DNA from: a virus
Direction: 5' to 3' (one strand)
Length of the DNA stretch: 42,089 bases
Virus record (IMG/VR): IMGVR_UViG_3300046492_000170
Span: 1-42,089 of that record
Below the pieces are notes generated by a model. The model was not told the origin of the DNA. It saw only the letters and a program-made list of their open reading frames with translations, and ran no database searches. The stretch's first letter is position 1. Every line of letters begins with the position of its first letter. Shown in pieces: positions 3,033 to 36,711 of the stretch. The translations under genes and the position numbers were made by a program.

Positions 3033-3920
3033 ATGCTAGCATACACACTTAAAGAAATTCTCGATCTTGTGCCGGAAGCCGCTTCATTTGTAAAGCAGGC
3101 TTCTGTAGAGCAAGAAATGCCCCTTGACAACAAGGACTCTTGCATCGCTACGGCCCTGCAAATGAAGTACCATGAAAAGGTCGCTTACAAGGCCGTAGAC
3201 GTTTTTGCGCTAGATAAAGTTGCAAAGGCTGTCGAAGCTTATGGCGTTCAGACTGAAGTAGCTGCACTAACTGACCGTATGGTCAAGGCTGCTGCACAGC
3301 GCACAGCTACAGCTGCTGCCATCGCTACTGACGACTACATGACCAAGCAAGCTTACTTCGAAGGCGAACTCTCAGGTCTTCGTGTAAACGGTACTCTTTC
3401 AAAGCAAGCTGCTGAGCTTTATGATGAAGCTAAAGAAAAGGGTATTGAGCCTAGCGAAGCCGTAGTACGTTATTCAGGTAACGGCTACATGGATAAGGAA
3501 GCTGCAGTTAAGGCACTTGCTAATCGTTTCTACGAAACCAAGAATCCTTCATTCGTTAAACTGGCTACTGCAATCCACAAGCTTCCACATCAAATTCGCC
3601 CAGAGACAGTTCGTGACATTTGTGATACAATTTCAGAAATGGACAAGCAAGCTGGTCTAGTCACTAAGGGCTATAACTTCTACAACGAAACAATCCATAC
3701 CAAAGAAGCTTCACTACGGTCATCACTGATGGTTAAGCTGTGCGGTAAGGACGTTCCATTTGAGAAAATTGCAAAGCTTGGTAAGGGTCATTTCTCATCA
3801 ATGATGGGTTCAGATATCGGTAATGAGTTCGACCACGGTCCTGCTCACTTCAAGCAAGTACTTGAAACCCTACCGATGGATCTGCAGAAAGTAGCTCTCC
3901 ACCTAACTAAAAACGTATAA
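3033..3920 (+). CDS. Hypothetical alanine-rich helical protein, possible virion protein
   Basis: 295 residues, Ala- and Lys-rich and predicted almost entirely helical. A short motif K-Q-A or K-E-A recurs (V-K-Q-A-S, T-K-Q-A-Y, S-K-Q-A-A, D-K-E-A-A, D-K-Q-A-G), suggesting degenerate internal repeats of about 40-60 residues. I do not recognise the family. The ATG is preceded by GATATAAACACT rather than a Shine-Dalgarno site. The gene ends three bases before the next ATG. An internal or scaffold-like virion protein would fit the composition and context, but this is inference. Confidence 0.65.
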   Translation: MLAYTLKEILDLVPEAASFVKQASVEQEMPLDNKDSCIATALQMKYHEKVAYKAVDVFALDKVAKAVEAYGVQTEVAALTDRMVKAAAQRTATAAAIATDDYMTKQAYFEGELSGLRVNGTLSKQAAELYDEAKEKGIEPSEAVVRYSGNGYMDKEAAVKALANRFYETKNPSFVKLATAIHKLPHQIRPETVRDICDTISEMDKQAGLVTKGYNFYNETIHTKEASLRSSLMVKLCGKDVPFEKIAKLGKGHFSSMMGSDIGNEFDHGPAHFKQVLETLPMDLQKVALHLTKNV

Positions 3921-3922
3921 GC

Positions 3923-4486
3923 ATGTTTGACGAAGAAGATATCGGCATTGAATTGAAAGCTCCTGATCCTAGGTTGGCAATGGCTTCAATTTCACACATC
4001 AAAGCCTCCTTGGATCGTATCTTCGGCAAGGGTGAGTGGAGAGATTTAGAAATCGAAACTATCTCTATTACGCTCGGTATGGTACTTGACACCTTAACTC
4101 GTGATAAGATTAGTGTTCTTCAGCTTATCGAAACTCAACCAGAACTGTACTTCGAAGACGCTGCGTTTACTCTGTATGCTACAGACGTTATTAATAACAT
4201 CGAAGCAGACTTTGAATTCGTACCTGCACCTACGACTCTTGAGCTAGCATACGCAATTACTGAAGTCCGTAAGGTTCTGACAGAGAACGGTATTTACATT
4301 CCAGTCGAGTCAACAGGTCTTGTAGCTACAGCTGCATACATGCTTAACCAAGAAGGATACTCAGTACCAGTAGCTCCATTTGACTTCATCCCCAATGAGA
4401 TGCTGTCAGAAGGTCAGACTACAGAAGATACTGAGAACAAAAAGAAAGCTATTAAGCGTTACATTAAAGAAATGAGTGGTGACTAA
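3923..4486 (+). CDS. Hypothetical protein, 187 residues
   Basis: Acidic, mostly helical protein that I do not recognise. No membrane segment or catalytic motif is evident; the C terminus is Lys/Glu-rich (E-N-K-K-K-A-I-K-R). Its start follows the previous stop by two bases (TAAGCATG) and its own stop touches the next ATG (TAAATG), so the three genes 3033-4894 are probably translated as a coupled set. A structural or assembly role is likely only from context. Confidence 0.65.
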   Translation: MFDEEDIGIELKAPDPRLAMASISHIKASLDRIFGKGEWRDLEIETISITLGMVLDTLTRDKISVLQLIETQPELYFEDAAFTLYATDVINNIEADFEFVPAPTTLELAYAITEVRKVLTENGIYIPVESTGLVATAAYMLNQEGYSVPVAPFDFIPNEMLSEGQTTEDTENKKKAIKRYIKEMSGD

Positions 4487-4894
4487 ATGTATTCAATCGA
4501 AATCGAAGTAAACAACCCAGTTACCATTACTGCTCAAGGGCCAAGCACAGGTCTTACAGCCCCACCTGACCAAATTCTTCTTTTCAATGGTGCAGTAAGC
4601 GTTCTTCCAGTTACGTTTGCCCCTGTCGCAGGTCCTCTATATAACTTGACATTTACACCTACTGTTACTGGCACATACTTGCTTTATGCGTTTGGTGTTA
4701 TTCAAGGAGTAGTAAATGTAGTAACTCAATCGCTTTACACAATTACCAAGAATATCCAAGATGAAGCCGTTGGTAGCTGGCAGTGGGATAAAACTGCTGG
4801 TACACTGATTATGCTTAGACAAGACGGTACGACCCTGGCTCAATTCACTGTCACAGATAATTTAACGATGTCCAGTCGTGAGCGAATCTCGTGA
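4487..4894 (+). CDS. Beta-rich hypothetical protein, possible virion/tail protein
   Basis: 135 residues, almost all beta strand, with Thr/Val/Pro-rich N-terminal half similar in texture to Ig-like phage domains (T-P-T-V-T-G-T-Y-L-L-Y-A-F-G). The C-terminal part (V-G-S-W-Q-W-D-K-T then L-R-Q-D-G-T-T-L-A-Q-F) resembles a segment common in phage tail and baseplate accessory proteins. The ATG directly abuts the previous stop codon. It is the last gene before the bidirectional terminator at 4915-4944. Function is not established from sequence. Confidence 0.6.
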   Translation: MYSIEIEVNNPVTITAQGPSTGLTAPPDQILLFNGAVSVLPVTFAPVAGPLYNLTFTPTVTGTYLLYAFGVIQGVVNVVTQSLYTITKNIQDEAVGSWQWDKTAGTLIMLRQDGTTLAQFTVTDNLTMSSRERIS

Positions 4895-4953: not shown

Positions 4954-6225
4954 TTAAAACTGACCGACGTTATCCCACACTGATGGCCGTGCTTCTTCTG
5001 CAGCCGCTTCAGGAAGAGCGAAAGATACGTTGTTAGCTTCAGCTTCAAAATCTACCAACGTAGGACCACTTACCTCGCCTACCAAGGGTTCCGAAGTTCC
5101 AACAAGTCCACTATAGACAGGAGTCATCTCAACATCCATCGGCTGAACCTGAATGATCGGACGAAGCTCCTTGACCTTGGCTTTCTTCTTGGGCTTCTCT
5201 GCTTCTTTAACTACCGGCTCGCCAGACGTCTGAGCCTTGATCAGAGCATCCACTTCAAGAGCATTACGACGAATGAACATATTCAGTACGTCAACGGCGT
5301 TAATGCCAGTCAGTCCTCCAAGCATTCCAGCACAACCCGTACCGATTTGAGTCAAATCAGCGTCGCCATGAATCATCTTGTTGCGATATTCCACAACTGT
5401 ATTCTTCGTATACGAGGTCGATCCACTGACGATATCAATCGACACCGCATTGTAGTCGATAGCCTTGTTATAGAAGTGATTCTGCACGAACGACAGAATG
5501 TACATAGCCATCAATGAATTGATAGCCAACGTCTGATCAAGATCTGCACAACTACCGAGACCAGGATTGTCTTCCAGATCACGATAGAAATAGTAGTCGA
5601 ATGGAATGTAGCTCAGATGATCGTGTGCGTACTCAATACGTTCCGGATTCTTGAAATGCGGACGCGCAGCTTCAGCACTACCATAATCGAAGTCAACAAA
5701 GCCGACGTTGTGGAACATACGGACTTGACCAAAACTGTCTTCGTTGCCTGCATCAATGAACACCGTGGGATCACCGTTAACGGAAAAAGTTTCGATAACA
5801 ATACGACGAGCTTTGGCACTGTCAACACACATGATAACCATGTCGTTGAAACGATGCTGAATATCAAGGCCGCTTACTTCCGATAGCAGACTGCGGAAGG
5901 CATACGGATTCGTACCTTCTTCAATGAACTTCGGATAAGCAACGACGTTCATGCCATATGCCTTTGCATATCGATTGGCCAGTACTGCAGCCTTGTTCTT
6001 ACCAACATCGCTCTGAACGAAGTTCTGACGAATCAGATTCTTCTGCTCAACAACGTCACCGTCAACCAAGACGATGTTCGTGGTACCGAGCCAACCAGAC
6101 GGTACGTGTTCTTTCGTGATGGAACGGATGAATTGAATCAGTGCCGGTACCAGCCGTGAGCCAGTTCCACCGCAGCCAACTACAAAAATGTTCGAAGGAA
6201 TAGAGGAGGGACGAAACGTAAACAT
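4954..6225 (-). CDS. E1-like/ThiF-family adenylating enzyme (PRTRC ThiF type)
   Basis: 423 residues. Residues 12-24 carry the Rossmann nucleotide-binding motif G-C-G-G-T-G (17-22). Residues 51-69 match the E1 signature: V-L-V-D-G-D-V-V-E with N-L-I-R-Q-N-F, followed by V-G-K-N-K-A (Lys76 region) and C-V-D-S-A (Asp135), the ATP/Mg-binding set of E1, MoeB and ThiF enzymes. G-S-C-A-D at 224-228 (Cys226) is the best candidate for the Cys seen at this place in the family. In these families the enzyme adenylates the C-terminal Gly of a ubiquitin-like protein. Residues from about 335 on form a Lys-rich then acidic tail not needed for the core fold. GGAG lies nine bases before the ATG; the promoter is at 6302-6311. 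It ends the ubiquitin-like cassette and is probably the activator of the Ubl at 10260-10682. Confidence 0.88.
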   Translation of the reverse strand: MFTFRPSSIPSNIFVVGCGGTGSRLVPALIQFIRSITKEHVPSGWLGTTNIVLVDGDVVEQKNLIRQNFVQSDVGKNKAAVLANRYAKAYGMNVVAYPKFIEEGTNPYAFRSLLSEVSGLDIQHRFNDMVIMCVDSAKARRIVIETFSVNGDPTVFIDAGNEDSFGQVRMFHNVGFVDFDYGSAEAARPHFKNPERIEYAHDHLSYIPFDYYFYRDLEDNPGLGSCADLDQTLAINSLMAMYILSFVQNHFYNKAIDYNAVSIDIVSGSTSYTKNTVVEYRNKMIHGDADLTQIGTGCAGMLGGLTGINAVDVLNMFIRRNALEVDALIKAQTSGEPVVKEAEKPKKKAKVKELRPIIQVQPMDVEMTPVYSGLVGTSEPLVGEVSGPTLVDFEAEANNVSFALPEAAAEEARPSVWDNVGQF

Positions 6226-6301: not shown

Positions 6302-6311
6302 CTTATACCAA
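6302..6311 (-). promoter_or_regulatory. Extended -10 promoter embedded in an upstream stop codon
   Basis: Minus-strand TTTGGTATAAG, 76 bases before the E1 start. The same bases encode the last codons of the zinc-finger gene (TTG-GTA-TAA), so its stop codon is part of the -10 element. It gives the E1 gene its own start of transcription. Confidence 0.65.
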
Positions 6312-6551
6312 AGAATCGGTATTTAAAGGACGAGGTCCAGTTTCTTCCCCGATGATAGCTACGTTGTTACCAGCAGAGAGAGCTGCATCAAGTTGCATCT
6401 CAAAATTCTTTTCTGTTTCTTTTTTATTGTCAGGCTTCATAGCGCAGTCGAAACAAATCATCGCACCTTTATGGCCGTAAGGTCGAAGCTCATAGCTGTC
6501 GAAATTTACCTTACAGTAAGCACATGCTATTTTCTTTTTTTCTTCAGTCAT
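6303..6551 (-). CDS. Small zinc-finger protein (two CxxC)
   Basis: 82 residues. Two C-x-x-C pairs, C-A-Y-C near residue 10-13 and C-F-D-C near residue 33-36, are spaced like a zinc ribbon or treble-clef finger; the rest is charged and probably helical. Short proteins of this kind bind nucleic acid or proteins; no more specific family is recognised. Its start overlaps the end of the 41-residue gene (6544-6669), and its last codons contain the promoter for the E1 gene. It lies between the JAB and E1 genes, so a link to the modification cassette is possible but unproven. Confidence 0.7.
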   Translation of the reverse strand: MTEEKKKIACAYCKVNFDSYELRPYGHKGAMICFDCAMKPDNKKETEKNFEMQLDAALSAGNNVAIIGEETGPRPLNTDSLV

Positions 6552-6912: not shown

Positions 6913-8226
6913 TTAATGGATACCGTTCATCTGGATACGTTCTTGAGCACTGTCAGGGAGTTCCTGATACAGACGCTTGAACAATTCCTCTTGACCTTCT
7001 TCTGACATCATATGAATCATATCTGCCATCAGAGTTTCTACGAGTTCATCCTTTCCGTTCAGCACAGCCATGCCATCATCGATCAAACAATAGATGTCAG
7101 CAACGTCTTTGCCATGAACTTCCTTGACTTCTTCATAACGTTCATCACAGTCAAACGTGGTGTTAGCATCAGGATCGAAATCAGGATTGTATGGAAACAA
7201 CTGCGGATGAGCGCTCAGATGAGACTCTTCATACTCAGGGTTCTCACGAAGAACAGCCAGAGCACGTTCTGCCTTATCAAGCGTAAGCATAGACGTGTCG
7301 ATGATACCGTCAGCGTCTACTGCATCAGGGTTGAAGGCCCAGGACTCCCAGGGGAAGCCTGCTCCAGCTCCAGCGGCAGCTGAGTGCTCCTCCCAATAGT
7401 TCCCATAACCATCGGGAAGTAACCCCCTATCACGAGCCTGCATATGTGGCCCTGCCCGATTTCCTACGTCCTCGCTTCCGCCCCTTGTGTACTGCCAAGG
7501 CTTTAGATGATCCGCTTTTCCCTTTGTGTTGTTCCCTCCAGTCGAATATCCAGGACTCGTAGTTACGATCTTGGAAATCCAATCTTCAGGAATTGCTTGC
7601 TCTTCACGAGTAGGGAGGACGAAGATGTCATCGAAGTTGCAGTCGATCTTCTTGTCCTTATAGTTAAAGCGCCACACCGTTTGAGGAGTTTCATCCTTCA
7701 GACGACCGATCACACCCGAGAAACCGATATTGCCACGGTCATCGTTATTGTCCGTGGTGCTGAAGAATGCACCCATCGTATTGTGACTATGAATGTCACA
7801 CACGATAGTCTTGCCAGCAGGCAGGGAGTTCCAGTCATACGATGCCGAAGCCTTCGACACACGTTGCTCAGGAACGATCAGATGATAACCACTCTCTTGA
7901 TCCCAACAAACCCAGATCATTGCTTCAAGCTCGGACTTCTTCACTTCCATCACTTGCTTGAAAAAGGCCACGACCTGATCAAACAACTGGATAGGAATCT
8001 TGCCGTCAGGCAGGAAGTTGATTTCTTGCGAGATCTTTCCTTCCTTATAGTTTGTCGGAAGTTTTTCCACCTTGAGTCGCACGAAACGATTACGACCACG
8101 AAGCTTGTGATGCTTGATAATACCTTCGCTGGTCATTGCGTAGATTTCGCTATAACCAGCGTCTACTGCTGCTTGAAGTTCATTGGGAAGAACAACGCAG
8201 CTAATGTGTTGGCTAATGATTTCCAT
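6913..8226 (-). CDS. JAB/JAMM metallopeptidase (PRTRC protein A type) with long C-terminal extension
   Basis: 437 residues. The zinc site of JAMM peptidases is complete: H146-S-H148, then S156 and D159 (H-S-H-x7-S-x2-D), on C-D-I-H-S-H-N-T-M-G. A preceding V-P-E-Q segment (Glu120) may supply the catalytic Glu. In E1-linked bacterial systems such enzymes cut at the C terminus of ubiquitin-like domains, so this one probably separates the two Ubl copies and may remove Ubl from targets (inference). Residues about 215-437 go well beyond the usual length of PRTRC A proteins and include a Gly/Ser/Arg/Ala-rich low-complexity stretch (about 225-290) and an acidic helical C terminus. AAGGAT precedes the ATG. 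It lies 14 bases after the E2-like gene and ends at a terminator. Confidence 0.88.
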   Translation of the reverse strand: MEIISQHISCVVLPNELQAAVDAGYSEIYAMTSEGIIKHHKLRGRNRFVRLKVEKLPTNYKEGKISQEINFLPDGKIPIQLFDQVVAFFKQVMEVKKSELEAMIWVCWDQESGYHLIVPEQRVSKASASYDWNSLPAGKTIVCDIHSHNTMGAFFSTTDNNDDRGNIGFSGVIGRLKDETPQTVWRFNYKDKKIDCNFDDIFVLPTREEQAIPEDWISKIVTTSPGYSTGGNNTKGKADHLKPWQYTRGGSEDVGNRAGPHMQARDRGLLPDGYGNYWEEHSAAAGAGAGFPWESWAFNPDAVDADGIIDTSMLTLDKAERALAVLRENPEYEESHLSAHPQLFPYNPDFDPDANTTFDCDERYEEVKEVHGKDVADIYCLIDDGMAVLNGKDELVETLMADMIHMMSEEGQEELFKRLYQELPDSAQERIQMNGIH

Positions 8227-8240
8227 TTGTATATCCTTGA

Positions 8241-8993
8241 TTAACGCGAATAACCACGAAGTTTGTTGTACGGGAATGCAAGATTGTCTTTAGCAGTTTG
8301 TGCAAGAAGTTCGAACCACTGATTAATAGTCATATCATCGCCTCGAACAGAACGCAGACCCAAGTCATTGTTGAACGGGGATTCGAACAAGAACTGATAA
8401 TACCAGTTCAGACCTTGAAGGTTGTTGTCCTGAAAGATCGAAGGCATTGAATTGCCACCATAACACATACGACCTTCAGGATACGTGTTCGGGAACGGAG
8501 AAATGAACACATGATTGCTGTGGTCTGGATCCCAGATTAAACCCTTCGGTAATGCACCAACCTTGGAATCTGTACAGAAGAACCTAGACTCAGTTACACG
8601 CCACTGCTTTCCGTTATGCTTATCAAGCTTGTGACTGATAATGAAGTTCGGCGTCTTAAGCGTGTACTTCGTATCCAAGTGAGCCATCTCAGCAATCCGC
8701 TCAGCATAGTAACAGCTGAGCTGAATCGAGTTACCAGACTTCGCAAAGAAGAAACAGTTTGCAGGAAGCTGGAATCCTTCAAGAGACTCTTCATTACGAC
8801 GATTCAGAATCGAGTTAATGATGCTCCCGAAATCTTCGTACGTAATACGCTTTTGAATCTGACTCGTGTCATCACCAATCAAAGCTGCTACACAATCTTC
8901 AAAGAGAATAATGTGTTGGCCTTGTGCGTTGACAAGCTCCACTTGTTCTTCCACATTAACTTCTTTAACTTCATCAACAATAAAGTCGCTCAT
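8241..8993 (-). CDS. E2-like protein (PRTRC protein B family)
   Basis: 250 residues. The segment F-P-N-T-Y-P-E-G-R-M-C-Y-G-G-N around residues 168-181 matches the conserved Cys-containing core of PRTRC protein B / prokaryotic E2-like proteins, with Cys177 the likely thioester-forming residue. The position between Ubl and JAB genes is the classic PRTRC order. In this family the protein is predicted to take the activated ubiquitin-like protein from E1 and pass it to a target. The assignment rests on my recall of the family motif and on synteny, not on a database search. The ATG overlaps the previous gene's stop (ATGA), with GAGGAT upstream, so translation is coupled to the 85-residue gene. Confidence 0.75.
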   Translation of the reverse strand: MSDFIVDEVKEVNVEEQVELVNAQGQHIILFEDCVAALIGDDTSQIQKRITYEDFGSIINSILNRRNEESLEGFQLPANCFFFAKSGNSIQLSCYYAERIAEMAHLDTKYTLKTPNFIISHKLDKHNGKQWRVTESRFFCTDSKVGALPKGLIWDPDHSNHVFISPFPNTYPEGRMCYGGNSMPSIFQDNNLQGLNWYYQFLFESPFNNDLGLRSVRGDDMTINQWFELLAQTAKDNLAFPYNKLRGYSR

Positions 8994-9247
8994 ACGAAAT
9001 CCTCTTCATCCTCTTCAACAGATGCATGTTTGGCTTTAACAATTCCCATTTCAATGGTCTTAACGCTAACCTTACGCCTGGAGGTAGTCTCACAAGCATA
9101 GGTTTTAATCGTTACCTTAGCCATTGTTTCAAGGTCTTTAGCACTGAGATCGCTTCCGATAGAATTGAACTCTCTCTGTGCTTCCTTAACTTCCGATGAC
9201 AGATCAGGTAGAGCTGTCGCTTCCGATATTAAACGCTGCAGTATCAT
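8990..9247 (-). CDS. Hypothetical 85-residue protein of the Ubl cassette
   Basis: Not recognised. The first half is a charged amphipathic helix (S-S-E-V-K-E-A-Q-R-E-F), the second half includes V-K-T-I-E-M-G-I-V and ends in a very acidic tail (E-E-D-E-E-D-F-V). It overlaps the preceding 305-residue gene by 44 bases and the E2-like gene by four. The ATG at 9247 has only a poor ribosome-binding site, so translation probably depends on the upstream gene. The tight overlaps on both sides suggest a partner or adaptor of the cassette. Confidence 0.6.
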   Translation of the reverse strand: MILQRLISEATALPDLSSEVKEAQREFNSIGSDLSAKDLETMAKVTIKTYACETTSRRKVSVKTIEMGIVKAKHASVEEDEEDFV

Positions 9248-10121
9248 AGTTCGATTTTCTAGAAAGTGTCTTGATTACTTGTTGCATCTCTTCCAGAACG
9301 AGGAAGATTTTCTCTACTGCCATAAACCTTTCTGAATCCGGGTAGACTGAAAGCCCACGACGAGAAGTGATATCGTATGTGTCCCATAGCTGAACGTCTC
9401 TATATGCACGAAGATTATCCAGTTGATTATTTTCAAGAAAATGTTGGGCAAGCTTTTCGTGAGTATCAACGCCTGGAATTGGCTCAACACCGAGAGGATT
9501 ATAACGTAGATACGCATCATGTGAGTATCCACGAATGGATACTTTTGCAGTCAGTGTAATTTTGAATCTGCCAGTGAAGTCAGACTTCGGACCTCTGTTA
9601 TTGGTCCACTGTCTATACGTATCATGTTCATCTGCATGGCCTTCTACGTTTGTACGAATCCGGTCAATGTTGAGAGAGATACCATTTCTCATACACTTGT
9701 AGTTCAGAAATCGAAAGTAACGACGCATTACTTTAACCCACTTAGCGCTTTCTAAGAGGAGTGAGACTTCATTACCATCAGGAATAGTGAGCATCATGTA
9801 CGGAGAAACAAGCTTTATGTTTACGCTGTTAGCCCCGTTGTTATTAAACAGAAGATCCCCCCCAGACATATACTCAAGATACGGAACCTGTTTCTTAACC
9901 GCCTTAAGCAGAATGTCTTTCAATTTCTGTACTGACTTACGTTGACCACCAGACCTCGAACCACACATATCAAACTGGTAATTGAACGTCTTCGTTGACA
10001 GTTTGCTATCAATGATCATCTTGGTGCAGAAATGTTTGAATTTCTCTTCTACATCTACTCTAAGCTTATTCACCTCTCTAGGTAAATTAGAGCTTGAGCG
10101 AGGTACTTTAAAAGTCTGCAT
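9204..10121 (-). CDS. Hypothetical 305-residue protein of the Ubl cassette
   Basis: Not recognised by motif. It is a mixed alpha/beta basic protein with no transmembrane segment; it contains a run of Asn near residue 92-95 and several Arg/Lys-rich patches, so nucleic-acid binding is possible. In PRTRC cassettes a protein (PRTRC F) of comparable size usually sits between the Ubl-like protein C and the E2-like protein B, and this gene holds that place; homology to it is only a positional guess. AAGGACA lies eight bases before the ATG. It follows the terminator after the Ubl gene, so its transcription depends on read-through. Confidence 0.65.
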   Translation of the reverse strand: MQTFKVPRSSSNLPREVNKLRVDVEEKFKHFCTKMIIDSKLSTKTFNYQFDMCGSRSGGQRKSVQKLKDILLKAVKKQVPYLEYMSGGDLLFNNNGANSVNIKLVSPYMMLTIPDGNEVSLLLESAKWVKVMRRYFRFLNYKCMRNGISLNIDRIRTNVEGHADEHDTYRQWTNNRGPKSDFTGRFKITLTAKVSIRGYSHDAYLRYNPLGVEPIPGVDTHEKLAQHFLENNQLDNLRAYRDVQLWDTYDITSRRGLSVYPDSERFMAVEKIFLVLEEMQQVIKTLSRKSNYDTAAFNIGSDSST

Positions 10122-10170: not shown

Positions 10171-10222
10171 AAAAAAAACAGGAAAGACGAGCAGCTTGGC
10201 TAGGAGGAACCCTGCTGCTCGT
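10171..10222 (-). terminator. Terminator/attenuator after the Ubl gene
   Basis: Minus-strand stem ACGAGCAGC / GCTGCTCGT (nine pairs, 10187-10195 with 10214-10222), 18-base loop, followed after seven bases by TTTTTTTT. The loop CTCCTAGC can also pair with AGCTAGGAG downstream, giving an alternative fold. It lies between the Ubl gene and the enzyme genes and should make Ubl RNA more abundant than enzyme RNA. Confidence 0.65.
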
Positions 10223-10259: not shown

Positions 10260-10682
10260 TTAACCCTTCGTACCCGTGCGCGGCTTGAAGGTGATCTCAC
10301 GGACGGTCTCGCCGTCTTGCGTCACAACACGCTCTTCGAACTGCATCGAACCGATGTTCGGGATGTCGTTCGCATAATTGCGTTGAATCGATGCCGGGGT
10401 GTAGTCACCCGGAATCTGGTACTCCGTGTCCGTCGAAGCGATGGTCACGATGGTCTTCGTTACACCAGCGCCCTTCGTACCCGTACGGGGCTTGAAGGTG
10501 ATTTCACGAACCGTTTCACCGTCTTGCGTAACGACACGCTCTTCGAATTGCATGCTGCCGATATTAGGAATATCGTTAGCGTAGTTGCGTTGGATCGAAG
10601 CCGGTGTGTAATCACCCGGAATTTGGTACTCGGTGTCGGTCGAAGCGATGGTAACGATAGTCTTGGTTACGGTTGCAGCCAT
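10260..10682 (-). CDS. Tandem ubiquitin-like protein (two identical PRTRC protein C / Prok_Ub copies)
   Basis: 140 residues made of two identical 67-residue copies (residues 5-71 and 74-140) joined by Ala-Gly. Each copy has the beta-grasp-like pattern of the PRTRC C family: strand K-T-I-V-T-I-A-S, then P-A-S-I-Q-R-N-Y-A helix, strand Q-F-E-E-R-V, and a final strand R-E-I-T-F-K-P-R followed by the tail T-G-T-K-G. The ends in Gly match substrates of E1-like enzymes; the internal G-T-K-G before Ala72 is the obvious site for the JAB peptidase, and the second copy is already mature because the stop codon follows G140. The ATG is preceded by AAAGGA. Promoter at 10755-10764, terminator right after. 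Codon choice is more GC-rich than in neighbours, fitting high expression. Confidence 0.88.
   Translation of the reverse strand: MAATVTKTIVTIASTDTEYQIPGDYTPASIQRNYANDIPNIGSMQFEERVVTQDGETVREITFKPRTGTKGAGVTKTIVTIASTDTEYQIPGDYTPASIQRNYANDIPNIGSMQFEERVVTQDGETVREITFKPRTGTKG
10263..10463 (-). repeat. C-terminal Ubl coding copy
   Basis: Encodes residues 74-140. By hand count it differs from the other copy at about 32 of 201 bases in 30 codons with no amino-acid change, including one Ser TCG against AGC swap. More GC-rich at third positions than the N-terminal copy. Confidence 0.85.
10470..10670 (-). repeat. N-terminal Ubl coding copy
   Basis: Encodes residues 5-71, offset 207 bases from the other copy. 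Identical in protein, diverged at synonymous positions. Confidence 0.85.
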
Positions 10683-10754: not shown

Positions 10755-10764
10755 GTTATACCAA
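10755..10764 (-). promoter_or_regulatory. Extended -10 promoter of the Ubl gene, with adjacent TGGACA
   Basis: Minus-strand TTTGGTATAACTATACTGGACAGG. The -10 is 73 bases before the ATG; the hexamer TGGACA (10744-10749) falls just past the expected transcription start, an operator-like place, and is the same hexamer that fills 991-1560. Confidence 0.6.
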
Positions 10765-10826
10765 ACATCTCTAAATTATTGAAATATCTGATACCTATAA
10801 AAGCTATGCACAGCCTTTACAATACT

Positions 10827-10837
10827 GTTATACCCAA
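10827..10837 (-). promoter_or_regulatory. Second, weaker promoter-like element upstream of the Ubl gene
   Basis: Minus-strand TTTGGGTATAAC, one base longer than the consensus so the TG of the extended -10 is out of register. About 145 bases before the Ubl ATG. It may be a weak second promoter or a relic of duplication. Confidence 0.3.
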
Positions 10838-10852
10838 ATTAGCTAAAAAATT

Positions 10853-10881
10853 GAAAAATAGCCTCGGGACTAGAAGAGGCT
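10853..10881 (-). terminator. Terminator after the 163-residue gene
   Basis: Minus-strand stem AGCCTC / GAGGCT with ten-base loop then ATTTTTC. An overlapping alternative stem CTCGGGA / TCCCGAG (10863-10869 with 10890-10896) excludes the first. Either would end the transcript of the gene at 10915-11406. Confidence 0.65.
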
Positions 10882-23062: not shown

Positions 23063-23290
23063 ATGTCAATCGCATCAACTATCACAGACGGATTCGCAGC
23101 CCTTGGAGAAGTTAAAGGCGGGCTGCCTAGAAGCGTTAATATCCCGACTAACATTTACCAATCAGGTATGTTGTCTGACACCTCATGGGCAGACGACTGC
23201 TTTGTCTATCAGAAGTTTTCTGCTAGGCTTCAGGCCTATATGATTGGTTACGTTAACAGCGTTTACTCTAACTACAGCGTTTATCTATAA
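23063..23290 (+). CDS. Small tail-operon protein, 75 residues
   Basis: Not recognised. Begins M-S-I-A-S-T-I-T-D-G-F and is mildly hydrophobic with Tyr/Ser-rich C terminus. Length and structure class match the 75-residue protein at 17269, but I see no clear sequence similarity. The stop shares a base with the sigma factor start (TAATG), so the two are probably co-translated. A small baseplate component is likely from context. Confidence 0.6.
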   Translation: MSIASTITDGFAALGEVKGGLPRSVNIPTNIYQSGMLSDTSWADDCFVYQKFSARLQAYMIGYVNSVYSNYSVYL

Positions 23291-24003
23291 TGGAAGAAAC
23301 AGAAAAGCCCGCATGGATCGATTATCGATCAAAAGACCAAGAGCTATACGACCAGTGGAAAAAGACTGGGAGTAAAACTCATCTTGGCGCTCTAGTTAAT
23401 CAGCTTAGCGGCGTTATTTACCAAGAAGTGAATCGTCAATCAGGTAGCTTGCCTAGTGCTGCTTTAAGTGCGGAAGCTAAGAAGTGGGCTATTAAAGCTA
23501 TTCACAGCTACGACCCTGCAAAGGGTACACAGCTCTCTACTCACGTTACGAATTATCTTCAGCGCGTACGCCGTCTTAATTACAAGTATCAAAATGCAGT
23601 GCGTCTTCCCGAGAATATGCAACTCTTGTACAGAGATTGGAACTCTGCAAATCAGGAGCTAGCAGATCAGCTTAATCGTGATCCTACTGAGGAAGAACTT
23701 GCTAAAGCGTTGGGTTGGTCAAAGCCTCAAGTTATCAAGTACAAGAACTCTCTTTACTCGGACTTGGTTGAATCAGCATCCGACAAACCAGCAGAATTCA
23801 CTCAGTACAACGAGAATGCTGAGCTTATGGCATATCTTATGAGTCAGCTATCTTCTGATGAAAAATTTATTTTCGACAACGTTAAAGAAATGCCTGCACC
23901 GAAGATCGCAGAAAAGCTAGGTGTGAACATCAATCGCTATAATTACATCAAGAAACAGTTGATTAACAAAATCGAAAAAACCAAACGAGAAATCGGACTA
24001 TAA
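23290..24003 (+). CDS. Sigma-70-family RNA polymerase sigma factor
   Basis: 237 residues with sigma domain layout. Region 2 at about 66-107: A-I-H-S-Y-D-P-A-K-G-T-Q-L-S-T-H-V then a basic helix (Q-R-V-R-R-L-N-Y-K), matching the F-D-P-x-K-G-x-x-F-x-T-Y-A signature. Region 3 at 108-160: D-P-T-E-E-E-L-A-K-A-L-G. Region 4 at 185-234 includes a helix-turn-helix (P-K-I-A-E-K-L-G-V-N-I-N-R-Y). Region 1 is absent, like FliA-type and phage factors. It would direct host RNA polymerase to phage promoters, most plausibly the late genes. It lies inside the baseplate operon with one-base overlaps to both neighbours, an unusual place for a regulator. Confidence 0.85.
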   Translation: MEETEKPAWIDYRSKDQELYDQWKKTGSKTHLGALVNQLSGVIYQEVNRQSGSLPSAALSAEAKKWAIKAIHSYDPAKGTQLSTHVTNYLQRVRRLNYKYQNAVRLPENMQLLYRDWNSANQELADQLNRDPTEEELAKALGWSKPQVIKYKNSLYSDLVESASDKPAEFTQYNENAELMAYLMSQLSSDEKFIFDNVKEMPAPKIAEKLGVNINRYNYIKKQLINKIEKTKREIGL

Positions 24004-31596: not shown

Positions 31597-32850
31597 ATGG
31601 CAGTCGATTTAGAATATTTCGGTGTACCACCGGCAGACTACAGAGAGCAAGAGCTTCGCACTCGGCTTACTGCAACTGTTGGTCAAACTACATTTTCAGC
31701 CCCGTATTCTCCAGGCAACGTTGACGTTTTCTACAACGGGGCTAAACTCGACCCTTTTTCTGAGTTTACCGGCACTGATGGAGCAAACATTGTACTTGCT
31801 AGTGGCGCATTCGCTACTGGTGATATCGTTGAAGTTATCTCACGTTCACAAGTACAAGTATCAAACATTTACACGAAGCAGCAAGTAGATAACCTTGCTG
31901 GTAACTTCTATGGTATCGCAACCGGTACAGGTAACGCTCAAGTCGTAACTACAGTTCCTACTTTTGCAGCGTATCTGGATGGCATGGAAATCAAGGTTCG
32001 TGCAGTTGCAGCTAACTCTTCTGCTACGCCTACTATTGCTATTAATGGTATTACTGCTAAGACTATTGTTTCTAACAATGCTGCAGCGGCTCTGTTCACT
32101 AACGACTGGGTAGCTGGTTCAGAGATTACGCTTCGCTACAATCAGACTCTGGATAAACTGGTACTTCTTGAGGGAGCTACTACGATAGCTACCCCTGCTC
32201 AGTTTGCTAACAATAATCAGGTTCCGAGTACTTTGTTTGTTCAAAGAGCTTTGGGAAATAGAAGTACATCAGTTAACGCTAATACAACAAGAACTTTAAC
32301 TACTTCACAGGTTGGAAGTTTAATTTCTACATTTGGAGCTACTGGGCCAATCACATTGACACTTCCTGACGTTAGTGCTTTTACTGCTGGTACCGGTCAA
32401 TCGTATCTGATTACTAACCCATCATTATTTCCAATTACTCTGACGTCTACGTCATTTTTCTCTCAACCTTGGGGGCCATCCGGAGGACAAAATAATTTTG
32501 TGCTACAATCGGGAGTATCAGTAGAATGTATTTCAGATGGAGGTAGTTGGAATCTTGTAGGTGGTGGCGGTTCATCTTCTCTACTCACCAATGGCCTTCA
32601 AAGACTTCCAAGTGGAATGATAATGCAGTGGGGTACAACAACTTCCATAACAACAGGAACAAGTATAACTGTAACCCTTCCTGTAGCCATGCCTGCAAAC
32701 ATTCTACAAGTAATGATTACATCTCAGTCTTCTGCAAACGGTACAGTTCCGTTTAGTGGAGGTTGGCAAGCAATTAACAACGCTACATTTACACTAAGAA
32801 ATAACTCCACGCTAACTGGACAGTATTCTTGGATGGCAATCGGTTATTAA
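31597..32850 (+). CDS. Tail fibre protein, paralogue 1
   Basis: 417 residues. N-terminal domain (residues about 1-100) attaches fibres and contains F-S-A-P-Y-S-P-G-N-V-D-V-F-Y-N-G, known from many tail fibres. A central stretch follows, then A-Q-F-A-N-N-N-Q-V-P-S-T-L-F-V-Q-R-A-L-G, a module shared with the fibres at 34899 and 35953. The last 90 residues (L-Q-R-L-P-S-G-M-I-M-Q-W-G to A-I-G-Y) match the gp53-like tail-fibre tip domain, which is expected to bind the host receptor. Only this paralogue has the attachment-type N terminus. Confidence 0.8.
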   Translation: MAVDLEYFGVPPADYREQELRTRLTATVGQTTFSAPYSPGNVDVFYNGAKLDPFSEFTGTDGANIVLASGAFATGDIVEVISRSQVQVSNIYTKQQVDNLAGNFYGIATGTGNAQVVTTVPTFAAYLDGMEIKVRAVAANSSATPTIAINGITAKTIVSNNAAAALFTNDWVAGSEITLRYNQTLDKLVLLEGATTIATPAQFANNNQVPSTLFVQRALGNRSTSVNANTTRTLTTSQVGSLISTFGATGPITLTLPDVSAFTAGTGQSYLITNPSLFPITLTSTSFFSQPWGPSGGQNNFVLQSGVSVECISDGGSWNLVGGGGSSSLLTNGLQRLPSGMIMQWGTTTSITTGTSITVTLPVAMPANILQVMITSQSSANGTVPFSGGWQAINNATFTLRNNSTLTGQYSWMAIGY

Positions 32851-34898: not shown

Positions 34899-35939
34899 AT
34901 GAGCTATTTTGGTCTACCTCTTTACCCAGTATCTCCTCCTAATCAGCAAGCAGTAGTCACAATCGTCGGGAACACTACCCTTGGCGTTGGTGCAGCTACG
35001 TATGACAAACAGTTCATGATTACTGGTGCTGGCGGTTATACAATCACGCTTCCTTCACTTGATGGTGTGAATTTCCCATCCAAGTCATACAGCATTTTCA
35101 ATAGTAGCTCTGCTCTTTGCACAGTAAACTGCGCTGGTTCAGACACTGCACTTCTGCTTGGTTCAAGCTTTACTTCATTTTCTATTCTTCCCGGTGAACG
35201 TATTCTTGTTCAAAACATGGTTACGTCATGGATTGTAGCATTGGAGAGCGCTTCTAGAACTACGACTGCACCTCAATTTGATAGTACTATTCGTAATGCA
35301 AGTACAGCTTGGGTTAGACAGTTTGGATTACAATACTCCGCAAATTTTGGAGTTTCTTCTAACGCTACTCTAACTGCAGCCCAAGTTGCTGGAGCGATTT
35401 GCAACATTCAAGGCAATAACATAACCGTAACTCTGCCCTTAACTTCTACAGCAGTTATTGGTACTAGAGTAGAATTTGTTAGTGGCGGAGGTACTAACAC
35501 TATTCAACGGCAGGGCTCAGACGTTATTTCTACGAACTTTTCAAATAACGTTAACTCTATCGTTTTAAACGCTGGAGATTCAGCAACTTTGGTGTACATG
35601 GGTACTGGGCAATGGTACGTTGTAGGTGGATCAGTTCAGATTGGTTTATCTGGTTCGTTTCTGCCAAATTTTTCAAACAACGGTTTCCAAAAACTTCCTA
35701 GTGGATTGATAATGCAGTGGGGTTATAGCGCAGCAGTAGCGTTTAATACTACCACAATAGTAACCTTTCCTATTTCTTTTCCAACGCAATGTATCGGAGT
35801 AACTGCTACTGCGTTTGGCGCGGCTGGAAATTATGCATCTCCTGAAGTTTTTAATAAGTCAACTACCAACTGTACCGTAGGTAACCCTACTACTGGAAGT
35901 ACCGCTACTGCTTACTTCGTTGTTGCAATTGGTAATTAA
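34899..35939 (+). CDS. Tail fibre protein, paralogue 2
   Basis: 346 residues. Several similar beta modules in a row (V-V-T-I-V-G-N-T-T-L then L-T-A-A-Q-V-A-G-A-I-C), with A-P-Q-F-D-S near the middle as in the other fibres. The last 90 residues (F-Q-K-L-P-S-G-L-I-M-Q-W-G to A-I-G-N) are the gp53-like tip domain. The N-terminal attachment domain of the fibre at 31597 is missing, so it may be a separate tip or be fitted to another partner. The ATG is preceded by TATAAACT, with no Shine-Dalgarno. Confidence 0.7.
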   Translation: MSYFGLPLYPVSPPNQQAVVTIVGNTTLGVGAATYDKQFMITGAGGYTITLPSLDGVNFPSKSYSIFNSSSALCTVNCAGSDTALLLGSSFTSFSILPGERILVQNMVTSWIVALESASRTTTAPQFDSTIRNASTAWVRQFGLQYSANFGVSSNATLTAAQVAGAICNIQGNNITVTLPLTSTAVIGTRVEFVSGGGTNTIQRQGSDVISTNFSNNVNSIVLNAGDSATLVYMGTGQWYVVGGSVQIGLSGSFLPNFSNNGFQKLPSGLIMQWGYSAAVAFNTTTIVTFPISFPTQCIGVTATAFGAAGNYASPEVFNKSTTNCTVGNPTTGSTATAYFVVAIGN

Positions 35940-35952
35940 GGAATAAATAAAA

Positions 35953-36711
35953 ATGGCACGTACAAGAAATTTAGGTAATTTGACTGATCTGCTTACTGCA
36001 GGGTCAACTTACGTCACAACAACTACTCCTCCGCAGTTTGACAATGGTACAAATTTGTCAACAACGGGTTTTGTGCAACGAGCACTTGGAAATTTTTCAG
36101 GGTATTTGAGCTTAGGGGTAAATACAGCGCTTACTGCGGCCCATGCCGGTTTTTTCATTACATGCGCTGGAACTACATTAACAATTACTTTGCCACAAGT
36201 TAGTACAATGGTAATTGGCTCTCAGATCACTATTTCTGCTGCAGGTGGTGCTACTGCATTGACTGTAGCAACGTTTGCTGGCGATACCTTAGTAGGAGCT
36301 AATAATCCTAATACAAGTATCTTGATGGGCGTGGACGAGTATTTAACTGCTATCGTTGTAGGTCCAACTTCATGGGTTGTAATTGGAAATACTCCTCGTA
36401 TTTTGAGTCAAAATGCTATGTTTAGTACCTCACTTTTGTCAACAGCTGGCTTTCAAAAATTACCAAGTGGAGTTATTTTACAATGGGGAAATGGAAACTA
36501 TACCGCCCAGACAACTACAACTAGCAATTTTGCGATGACGTTTCCAAATAGCTGTTTGGCTACTTATGCAAGCTTGGGTTTTAACCTTTCACTTACAACG
36601 AATAGCGTTGGTATAGGTATCCAGGCTATCAGCACTTCCCAATTTAAATTAACGGTACCTTCTGCAGGTGCCGGTACGACAGGGTGCTCCTGGCTTGCAA
36701 TTGGTGTATAA
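35953..36711 (+). CDS. Tail fibre protein, paralogue 3
   Basis: 252 residues. Shares P-P-Q-F-D-N, F-V-Q-R-A-L-G and the module L-T-A-A-H-A-G-F-F-I-T-C-A-G with its relatives, and ends with the tip domain (F-Q-K-L-P-S-G-V-I-L-Q-W-G to A-I-G-V). It is the shortest of the three, and visibly more A/T-rich at third positions than the genes around it, which hints at recent acquisition or exchange. The start is preceded by AATAAATAAAA. Confidence 0.7.
   Translation: MARTRNLGNLTDLLTAGSTYVTTTTPPQFDNGTNLSTTGFVQRALGNFSGYLSLGVNTALTAAHAGFFITCAGTTLTITLPQVSTMVIGSQITISAAGGATALTVATFAGDTLVGANNPNTSILMGVDEYLTAIVVGPTSWVVIGNTPRILSQNAMFSTSLLSTAGFQKLPSGVILQWGNGNYTAQTTTTSNFAMTFPNSCLATYASLGFNLSLTTNSVGIGIQAISTSQFKLTVPSAGAGTTGCSWLAIGV

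Follow-up and report, generated by a model that had tools for sequence, protein, structure and literature searches.

The DNA analyzed here, referred to as the window, is the whole stretch of 42,089 nucleotides comprising positions 1 to 42,089 of the virus record IMGVR_UViG_3300046492_000170 in IMG/VR. On its reverse strand, an open reading frame at positions 10260–10682 encodes a tandem ubiquitin-like (Ubl) precursor of 140 residues, which consists of two identical 67-residue units in the architecture MAAT-[67 residues]-AG-[67 residues]. Unit 1 (residues 5–71; positions 10470–10670) ends in TGTKG, and cleavage is predicted after its last residue, Gly71. An Ala-Gly linker (residues 72–73; positions 10464–10469) leads to unit 2 (residues 74–140; positions 10263–10463), the last codon of which encodes Gly, followed by the stop codon at positions 10260–10262; all of these features lie on the reverse strand. 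The repeat was independently detected by Tandem Repeats Finder (period 207, 2.0 copies, 84% match), and the same protein was found in five further contigs (L002–L006). The possibility that the frame at 10260–10682 is open by chance was rejected.

An earlier note on this DNA had claimed, from the letters alone, that the two copies are identical in protein but carry silent differences at about 30 of 67 codons, or 32 of 201 bases. This proved exact on recounting, and the coordinates, strand and frame were right: the units agree at 67/67 residues, differ at 30 codons and 32 bases and show no replacement change. Thirty of the 32 base differences fall at third positions, and the remaining two belong to the multi-base serine swap that had been pointed out, which is located at Ser43 (AGC in one unit and TCG in the other). 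When 32 substitutions were placed at random, ∼22 residues were altered (minimum 13 in 5,000 trials). Silent divergence between the units is saturated (pS 0.63, JC dS ∼1.3–1.4), and the 30 differing codons compare with 28.4 expected if codons were drawn independently from the codon usage of the gene itself. Alignment of the copies gave an upper 95% bound for dN/dS of ∼0.014, which bears out the claim of strong selection on the protein, of the purifying kind. The two-copy observation is therefore confirmed as real and far from chance.

Structure prediction gives, at high confidence, a β-β-α-β-β β-grasp domain with a flexible TGTKG tail for the unit. An AlphaFold2 model of residues 72–140 had a pLDDT of 92.4, with strands at 5–10, 15–20, 43–51 and 54–62 and a helix at 25–31. 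Structural matches from VIA-align had middling Z scores (protein G, 5.3; the TINCR Ubl, 5.1; MoaD, 5.0; ubiquitin, 5.0), and protein L was also matched. Since a Foldseek search with the Ubl gave a best E value of only 0.11, topology and the VIA-align matches with Z values of ∼5 are the basis for assigning the fold. The fold class is clear in the predicted model, and fold alone does not establish kinship. Among the weak sequence leads to solved structures, the sole Ubl was MoaD (E value 0.36). Pfam Prok_Ub (PF14454), at an E value of at most 0.01, matched six of 30 relatives and not the window unit; matches of the Ubl to Chlam_vir, SU10_adaptor and phrog_13864 in Pfam and PHROG were below cut-off or marginal and were taken as chance. 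A first hhalign comparison with PRTRC_C (98.8%) was set aside because the profile contained a near-copy of the target. A profile free of such a near-copy gave 84.9% and an E value of 6.5e-06 against PRTRC_C of Burkholderia phage BgVeeders33. This profile match, a weak similarity to TIGR03738 and the operon together lend weak support to a kinship with PRTRC_C.

Downstream of the Ubl gene and on the same strand lie genes for a 305-residue protein (9204–10121), an 85-residue protein (8990–9247), an E2-like protein (8241–8993), a JAB/JAMM peptidase (6913–8226) and an E1-like adenylating enzyme of the ThiF type (4954–6225). The Prok-E2_D (PF14460, 31.8 bits, cut-off 25), Prok-JAB (PF14464, 38.3 bits, cut-off 25) and ThiF (PF00899, 55.6 bits, cut-off 28.1) matches in Pfam all exceed the gathering scores. 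Cys177 of the E2 is invariant across the six E2s aligned; the E1 carries GxGGxGS and a Cys226 that is invariant across the aligned E1s. The earlier note had pointed to a nearby JAB as the peptidase that such a precursor needs, and the enzyme does belong to the same operon, with its JAMM motif (Glu101, His-Ser-His at 146–148, Asp159) intact and Glu101, His146, His148 and Asp159 invariant in the alignment. Searches of solved structures with the E2 and JAB profiles returned nothing useful. The 305-residue protein has 26 family members and a conserved position in the lineage, and its AlphaFold2 model (pLDDT 76) had no convincing fold match. The C-terminus of the 85-residue protein (EEDFV) overlaps the start of E2, and in the window clade an 82-residue zinc-ribbon-like protein with CxxC pairs (phrog_18256; 6303–6551, reverse strand) is encoded between JAB and E1. 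The operon adjoins the gene for the large terminase subunit and virion genes. Elsewhere in the window, three tail-fibre-like genes on the forward strand (31597–32850, 34899–35939 and 35953–36711) belong to the same PHROG families, phrog_4209 and phrog_11518, and are possibly duplicated receptor-binding genes.

In content and order the cassette resembles the PRTRC cassette and the type 6d operons of Iyer et al. (2006), which comprise a Ubl, a JAB with an N-terminal extension, an E1, an E2 and a helical protein. The PRTRC order of Ubl, F position, E2, JAB and E1 is kept, and E1, JAB and E2 are detectably similar to PRTRC_ThiF, PRTRC_A and PRTRC_B, although the NCBIfam scores stay below the curated cut-offs (ThiF, 91.5 against 144.75 bits; A, 78.4 against 101.8; B, 23.9 against 131.45; C, 15.1 against 45.95). 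No ParB-family member and no match to proteins E and F was found among the operon proteins and neighbours scanned, and an hhalign comparison of the 305-residue family with the F-position protein of BgVeeders33 was negative. The conserved E2 cysteine of type 6d corresponds to Cys177. However, a His C-terminal to this Cys is called absolutely conserved in type 6d (Iyer et al., 2006; PMC1779556), whereas the window E2 has no His after Cys177 and the phage clade carries FNND, FNDD or FNSD in place of the FTHP or FNHD found elsewhere. Multi-unit Ubl genes are a further difference of the phage cassettes from PRTRC and type 6d systems. The phage cassette is a diverged relative of these systems.

The Ubl gene is flanked by putative expression signals of its own. 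The promoter-like element CAAT-N15-GGTATAA, which is specific to this lineage, occurs twice upstream of Ubl in the window clade (proximal, 10756–10781; distal, 10828–10853; both on the reverse strand) and nowhere else in the window; of 35 cassettes of the lineage, 26 have it immediately before Ubl, and only five copies are present in the 181 kb of Salmonella phage Arash. A sigma-70-like factor that might read this element is encoded at 23290–24003 of the window. Directly after the Ubl gene, a hairpin with a U-run (10171–10222, reverse strand; z −3.9) resembles a terminator and recurs in L002 (z −3.4) and L026 (z −7.4); a simple terminator scan missed it, probably owing to its long loop. In Arash, the codon adaptation index of Ubl (0.75) exceeds that of all 243 ORFs of at least 100 residues, the major capsid gene (0.67) included, and E1, E2 and JAB reach 0.40–0.46; the values were calculated for this one phage and 63 Ubl codons with an E. 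coli table. A higher GC3 of Ubl is not a general rule, as the mean difference is only 0.03 and its sign varies across cassettes. The natural reading of these signals is that Ubl would be made from a separate, abundant transcript, with the tandem units adding to the yield.

A tblastn search with the Ubl against named phages gave no match, and relatives were found via E1 and E2. From the E1 and JAB alignments, 62 non-redundant cassettes in viral contigs and named phages were selected to hold E1, JAB, E2 and Ubl, and in all 62 the gene order is Ubl-E2-JAB-E1. The earlier note had suggested looking for variation in copy number among related phages, and such variation is extensive: 47 of the 62 cassettes have a single unit, ten have two and the others have three, four, four, five and six. 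In the E1 tree the closest relatives of the window clade are single-copy, and the single or multiple state has changed at least seven times, which indicates that multi-copy Ubl genes arose repeatedly. Among named phages, Arash has one unit, Vibrio phage D69 has three diverged units and Bacillus phage KLEB27-3 has four units and a seven-residue tail. Tails past the last GxKG also occur in L090, L059, L036, L135 and L020 and are often basic or amphipathic (ARFTKLVIKLA, LFSRFLQAIAKLRG, ARLLKTGVKGASLFKRVVNFLIG); by analogy with eukaryotic polyubiquitin, their removal would need the same peptidase. The 66-residue single Ubl gene of Arash (OQ632216.1; positions 107–307 of L017) is absent from the GenBank annotation, where the overlapping gene gp251c is read in another frame. 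Two copies can also be reached by another route, as in L047, where two separate single-Ubl genes (4360–4551 and 4625–4810) are adjacent and differ at eight residues. Cellular PRTRC-like cassettes with a detected Ubl have a single one in all cases but an Anaerolineae contig, L225, in which positions 3597–4394 encode two near-identical units and a C-terminal domain.

The pattern seen in the window recurs in independent multi-unit genes. Near-identical units in L020, L032, L045, L059, L074 and L090 carry as many silent differences as independently chosen codons would give, which amounts to saturation, and five pairs of units in these genes have no amino-acid difference. In L090, silent differences affect 29/56 codons between units 1 and 4, 35/56 between units 3 and 4 and 37/56 between units 5 and 6, each with identical protein; the L045 copies are identical over 60 codons and differ at 21 nucleotides. 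Units 2 and 3 of KLEB27-3 are likewise identical in protein, with 31/57 silent codons differing and 27.0 expected. The units of L016, L046, L087 and L127 differ by many residues, and unit identity is hence common in multi-unit genes but not a rule.

The duplication in the window is old. An IMG/VR scan found the identical 140-residue protein in the five further phage contigs, from four sample sets, and the six contigs represent four distinct DNA haplotypes, on which grounds an assembly artefact was rejected. Among the 12 copies, first copies are 0–12 nucleotides apart from one another and second copies 0–9, compared with 30–35 between a first and a second copy, and at 21 codons the copies disagree in all six genomes. 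Because first copies cluster with first copies and second copies with second copies across clades, the duplication happened before the two clades separated. This orthologous grouping excludes that the copies recently exchanged sequence, whether by gene conversion or by unequal exchange. Conversion of the protein without the DNA, which the earlier note had listed as excluded, is no real alternative. Of the two grounds for doubt that it had named, an assembly error finds no support in the six contigs, and the other, related phages with one diverged copy, applies in part: the closest outgroups (L026, L027 and L031) have a single copy that is 62–64% identical to the window unit, which dates the duplication to the clade of the window and does not turn it into an artefact. 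No other gene of the stretch is as conserved as Ubl, which has a between-clade protein identity of 100%, compared with 94% for terminase, 86% for JAB, 72% for E1, 71% for E2 and 54% for the 305-residue protein.

In multi-unit genes, Gx[KR]G ends all 42 units, internal ones included, and the residues that follow it vary among Ala, Ser, Met, Thr, Asn and Gln. This retention of the motif in every unit, followed by variable residues, makes cleavage behind every unit likelier than a fixed fusion, and together with the identical head-to-tail units it supports the resemblance to polyubiquitin that had been proposed. We consider it probable that the gene encodes a phage polyubiquitin-like precursor, which would be cut by JAB and conjugated through E1 and E2 to supply an abundant, identical modifier. 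The Ubl gene would have one or more promoters and a terminator to itself. The operon's JAMM peptidase would cut after Gly71 to release two identical Ubls ending in TGTKG, unit 2 being Gly-terminal already; the C-terminal Gly would then be activated by E1 and passed to Cys177 of E2, and the Ubl would be joined to target proteins during infection. The tandem units would raise the molar amount of this one highly expressed modifier. As copies in one genome meet the same JAB, E1, E2 and set of targets, both would have to suit them and the protein would stay identical, whereas orthologues meet different partners; the silent sites would be randomized because the DNA is not homogenized by conversion. 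Single-copy orthologous Ubls do change readily (24 residues with 70 nucleotides between the window and L026; 17 residues with 47 nucleotides between L026 and L027), in contrast to no residue between the copies in the window (32 nucleotides) or in L045 (21 nucleotides). Points against the precursor model are the single C-terminal Gly, with no GlyGly, the E2 without the His of type 6d, the multi-unit genes whose units clearly differ and the predominance of single-unit cassettes (47 of 62).

Two further explanations are compatible with this precursor model. The first, put forward in the earlier note, is selection against DNA repeats, whereby only recoded duplicates would escape recombinational deletion. 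The longest run common to both copies is just 14 nucleotides (window, L002 and L003), and the near-identical pairs include no unsaturated one, as would be expected under such selection. However, the silent differences match the random expectation without excess and are no more evenly spaced than in permutations among codons for the same amino acid (P ∼0.11–0.26; window, L002 and L003), so that repeat selection is not needed; furthermore, young duplicates with identical DNA are prone to be merged during short-read assembly, and their absence is expected from ascertainment. A part for this selection is accordingly rather unlikely. The second explanation, which we hold only tentatively and at a similarly low level, is that the tandem arose by the joining of two previously diverged alleles of an invariant Ubl from two phages, rather than by a duplication and gradual drift. 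The between-clade dS of Ubl is 0.23, compared with 0.37–2.4 for its neighbours and ∼1.33 from copy to copy; no such reduction is seen inside the clade of the window (0.06 and 0.11 for Ubl, compared with 0.06 and 0.03 for terminase). The simplest reading of the low between-clade value is exchange of the gene between clades, and a gene that seemingly moved in this way could have supplied such alleles. However, no single-copy phage with either allele was found, and the nearest single-copy Ubls differ from the window unit at 23–24 of 67 residues.

BilA of the bacterial Bil system is a fused di-Ubl modifier, like ISG15. That the window tandem is likewise never cut and acts as one fused modifier, of which only the C-terminal Gly is used, appears improbable: unit 1 is held identical to unit 2, which is needless in a fusion, the internal units of all multi-unit genes keep Gx[KR]G and genes with four to six units make a fixed fusion unlikely, even though unit 2 stops exactly at Gly without a tail and Bil is known to attach its Ubl to a phage tail fibre (PMC12948488). 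Least likely is a sulfur carrier of the ThiS/MoaD kind, which would donate a thiocarboxylate without protein conjugation, since the β-grasp fold, the ThiF-type E1 and the MoaD lead are offset by the presence in the cassettes, all 62 having been chosen for the four genes, of an E2-like protein of their own with an invariant Cys and by the lack of a sulfurtransferase gene among the window ORFs scanned. To our knowledge, no sulfur carrier is made as a precursor of four to six units.

The polyubiquitin-like precursor shares with eukaryotic polyubiquitin the identical head-to-tail units in one ORF, the silent divergence, the variable number of units and the C-terminal Gly (PMC10457151), as well as, in some relatives, extra residues after the last unit. 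It differs in that the phage operon co-encodes a peptidase and in that the phage units are only 62–64% identical to those of the nearest single-copy clade, so that the sequence is not universally frozen. Concerted evolution has been reported for Plasmodium polyubiquitin; the window clade shows the opposite, with 9–10 nucleotide differences across phages and 31–33 within a phage. In bacteria, type 6e operons have two to three tandem Ubl domains, which were likened to polyubiquitin in 2006 (PMC1779556); they are of a different operon type, and copy identity with silent saturation is not described in the available part of that paper.

The Bil cassette (BilABCD) consists of Ubl, E2, DUB and E1 genes in that order, and the cassette studied here has the same kinds of gene, with the difference that the phage is the encoder. 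In a comparison with known defence models, made with Bil and type II CBASS in view, PADLOC had no model matching Ubl, E2 or JAB, and on E1 it gave just weak partial E1–E2 matches (best 4.5e-07 over 76 residues). The operon of Arash sits between tail genes and terminase, and its E1 and E2 were labelled 'structural protein' by the depositors, with no basis for the label in the record. This position and these labels are hints of a role in infection biology and virion assembly; it is equally possible that the system is a phage counterpart, or decoy, of a host Ubl defence.

Scattered annotations of PRTRC-like genes in phages exist, and tandem Ubls in bacterial operons were already known. No description of phage-encoded Ubl systems was found in the open-access journal literature searched, which included a survey of jumbo phages (PMC7824862). 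What appears new relative to that literature is the occurrence of putative phage polyubiquitin-like precursors together with a complete pathway, and the pattern of identity with silent saturation. Whether polyubiquitin repeats are kept alike by concerted evolution or by purifying selection with birth and death has been disputed (PMC10457151), and the recurrent multi-unit precursors provide natural replicates for this dispute. In the window clade they give a clear answer: the copies predate the phage clades, the DNA is unhomogenized and the protein is frozen. The named carriers, Salmonella phage Arash, Bacillus phage KLEB27-3 and the Vibrio phage D69 group, make the system testable in the laboratory. 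Bacterial Ubl conjugation is mainly known as an anti-phage defence, and here phages bear the whole kit and, to judge from codon bias, seem to produce large amounts of the modifier. More broadly, and with about even confidence, tailed phages may have evolved polyubiquitin genes repeatedly and independently, with two to six often identical units and with peptidase, E1 and E2 co-encoded; these would run a full conjugation pathway in infection, and nothing but the shared partners would hold the protein of their units identical, with no concerted evolution at the DNA level.
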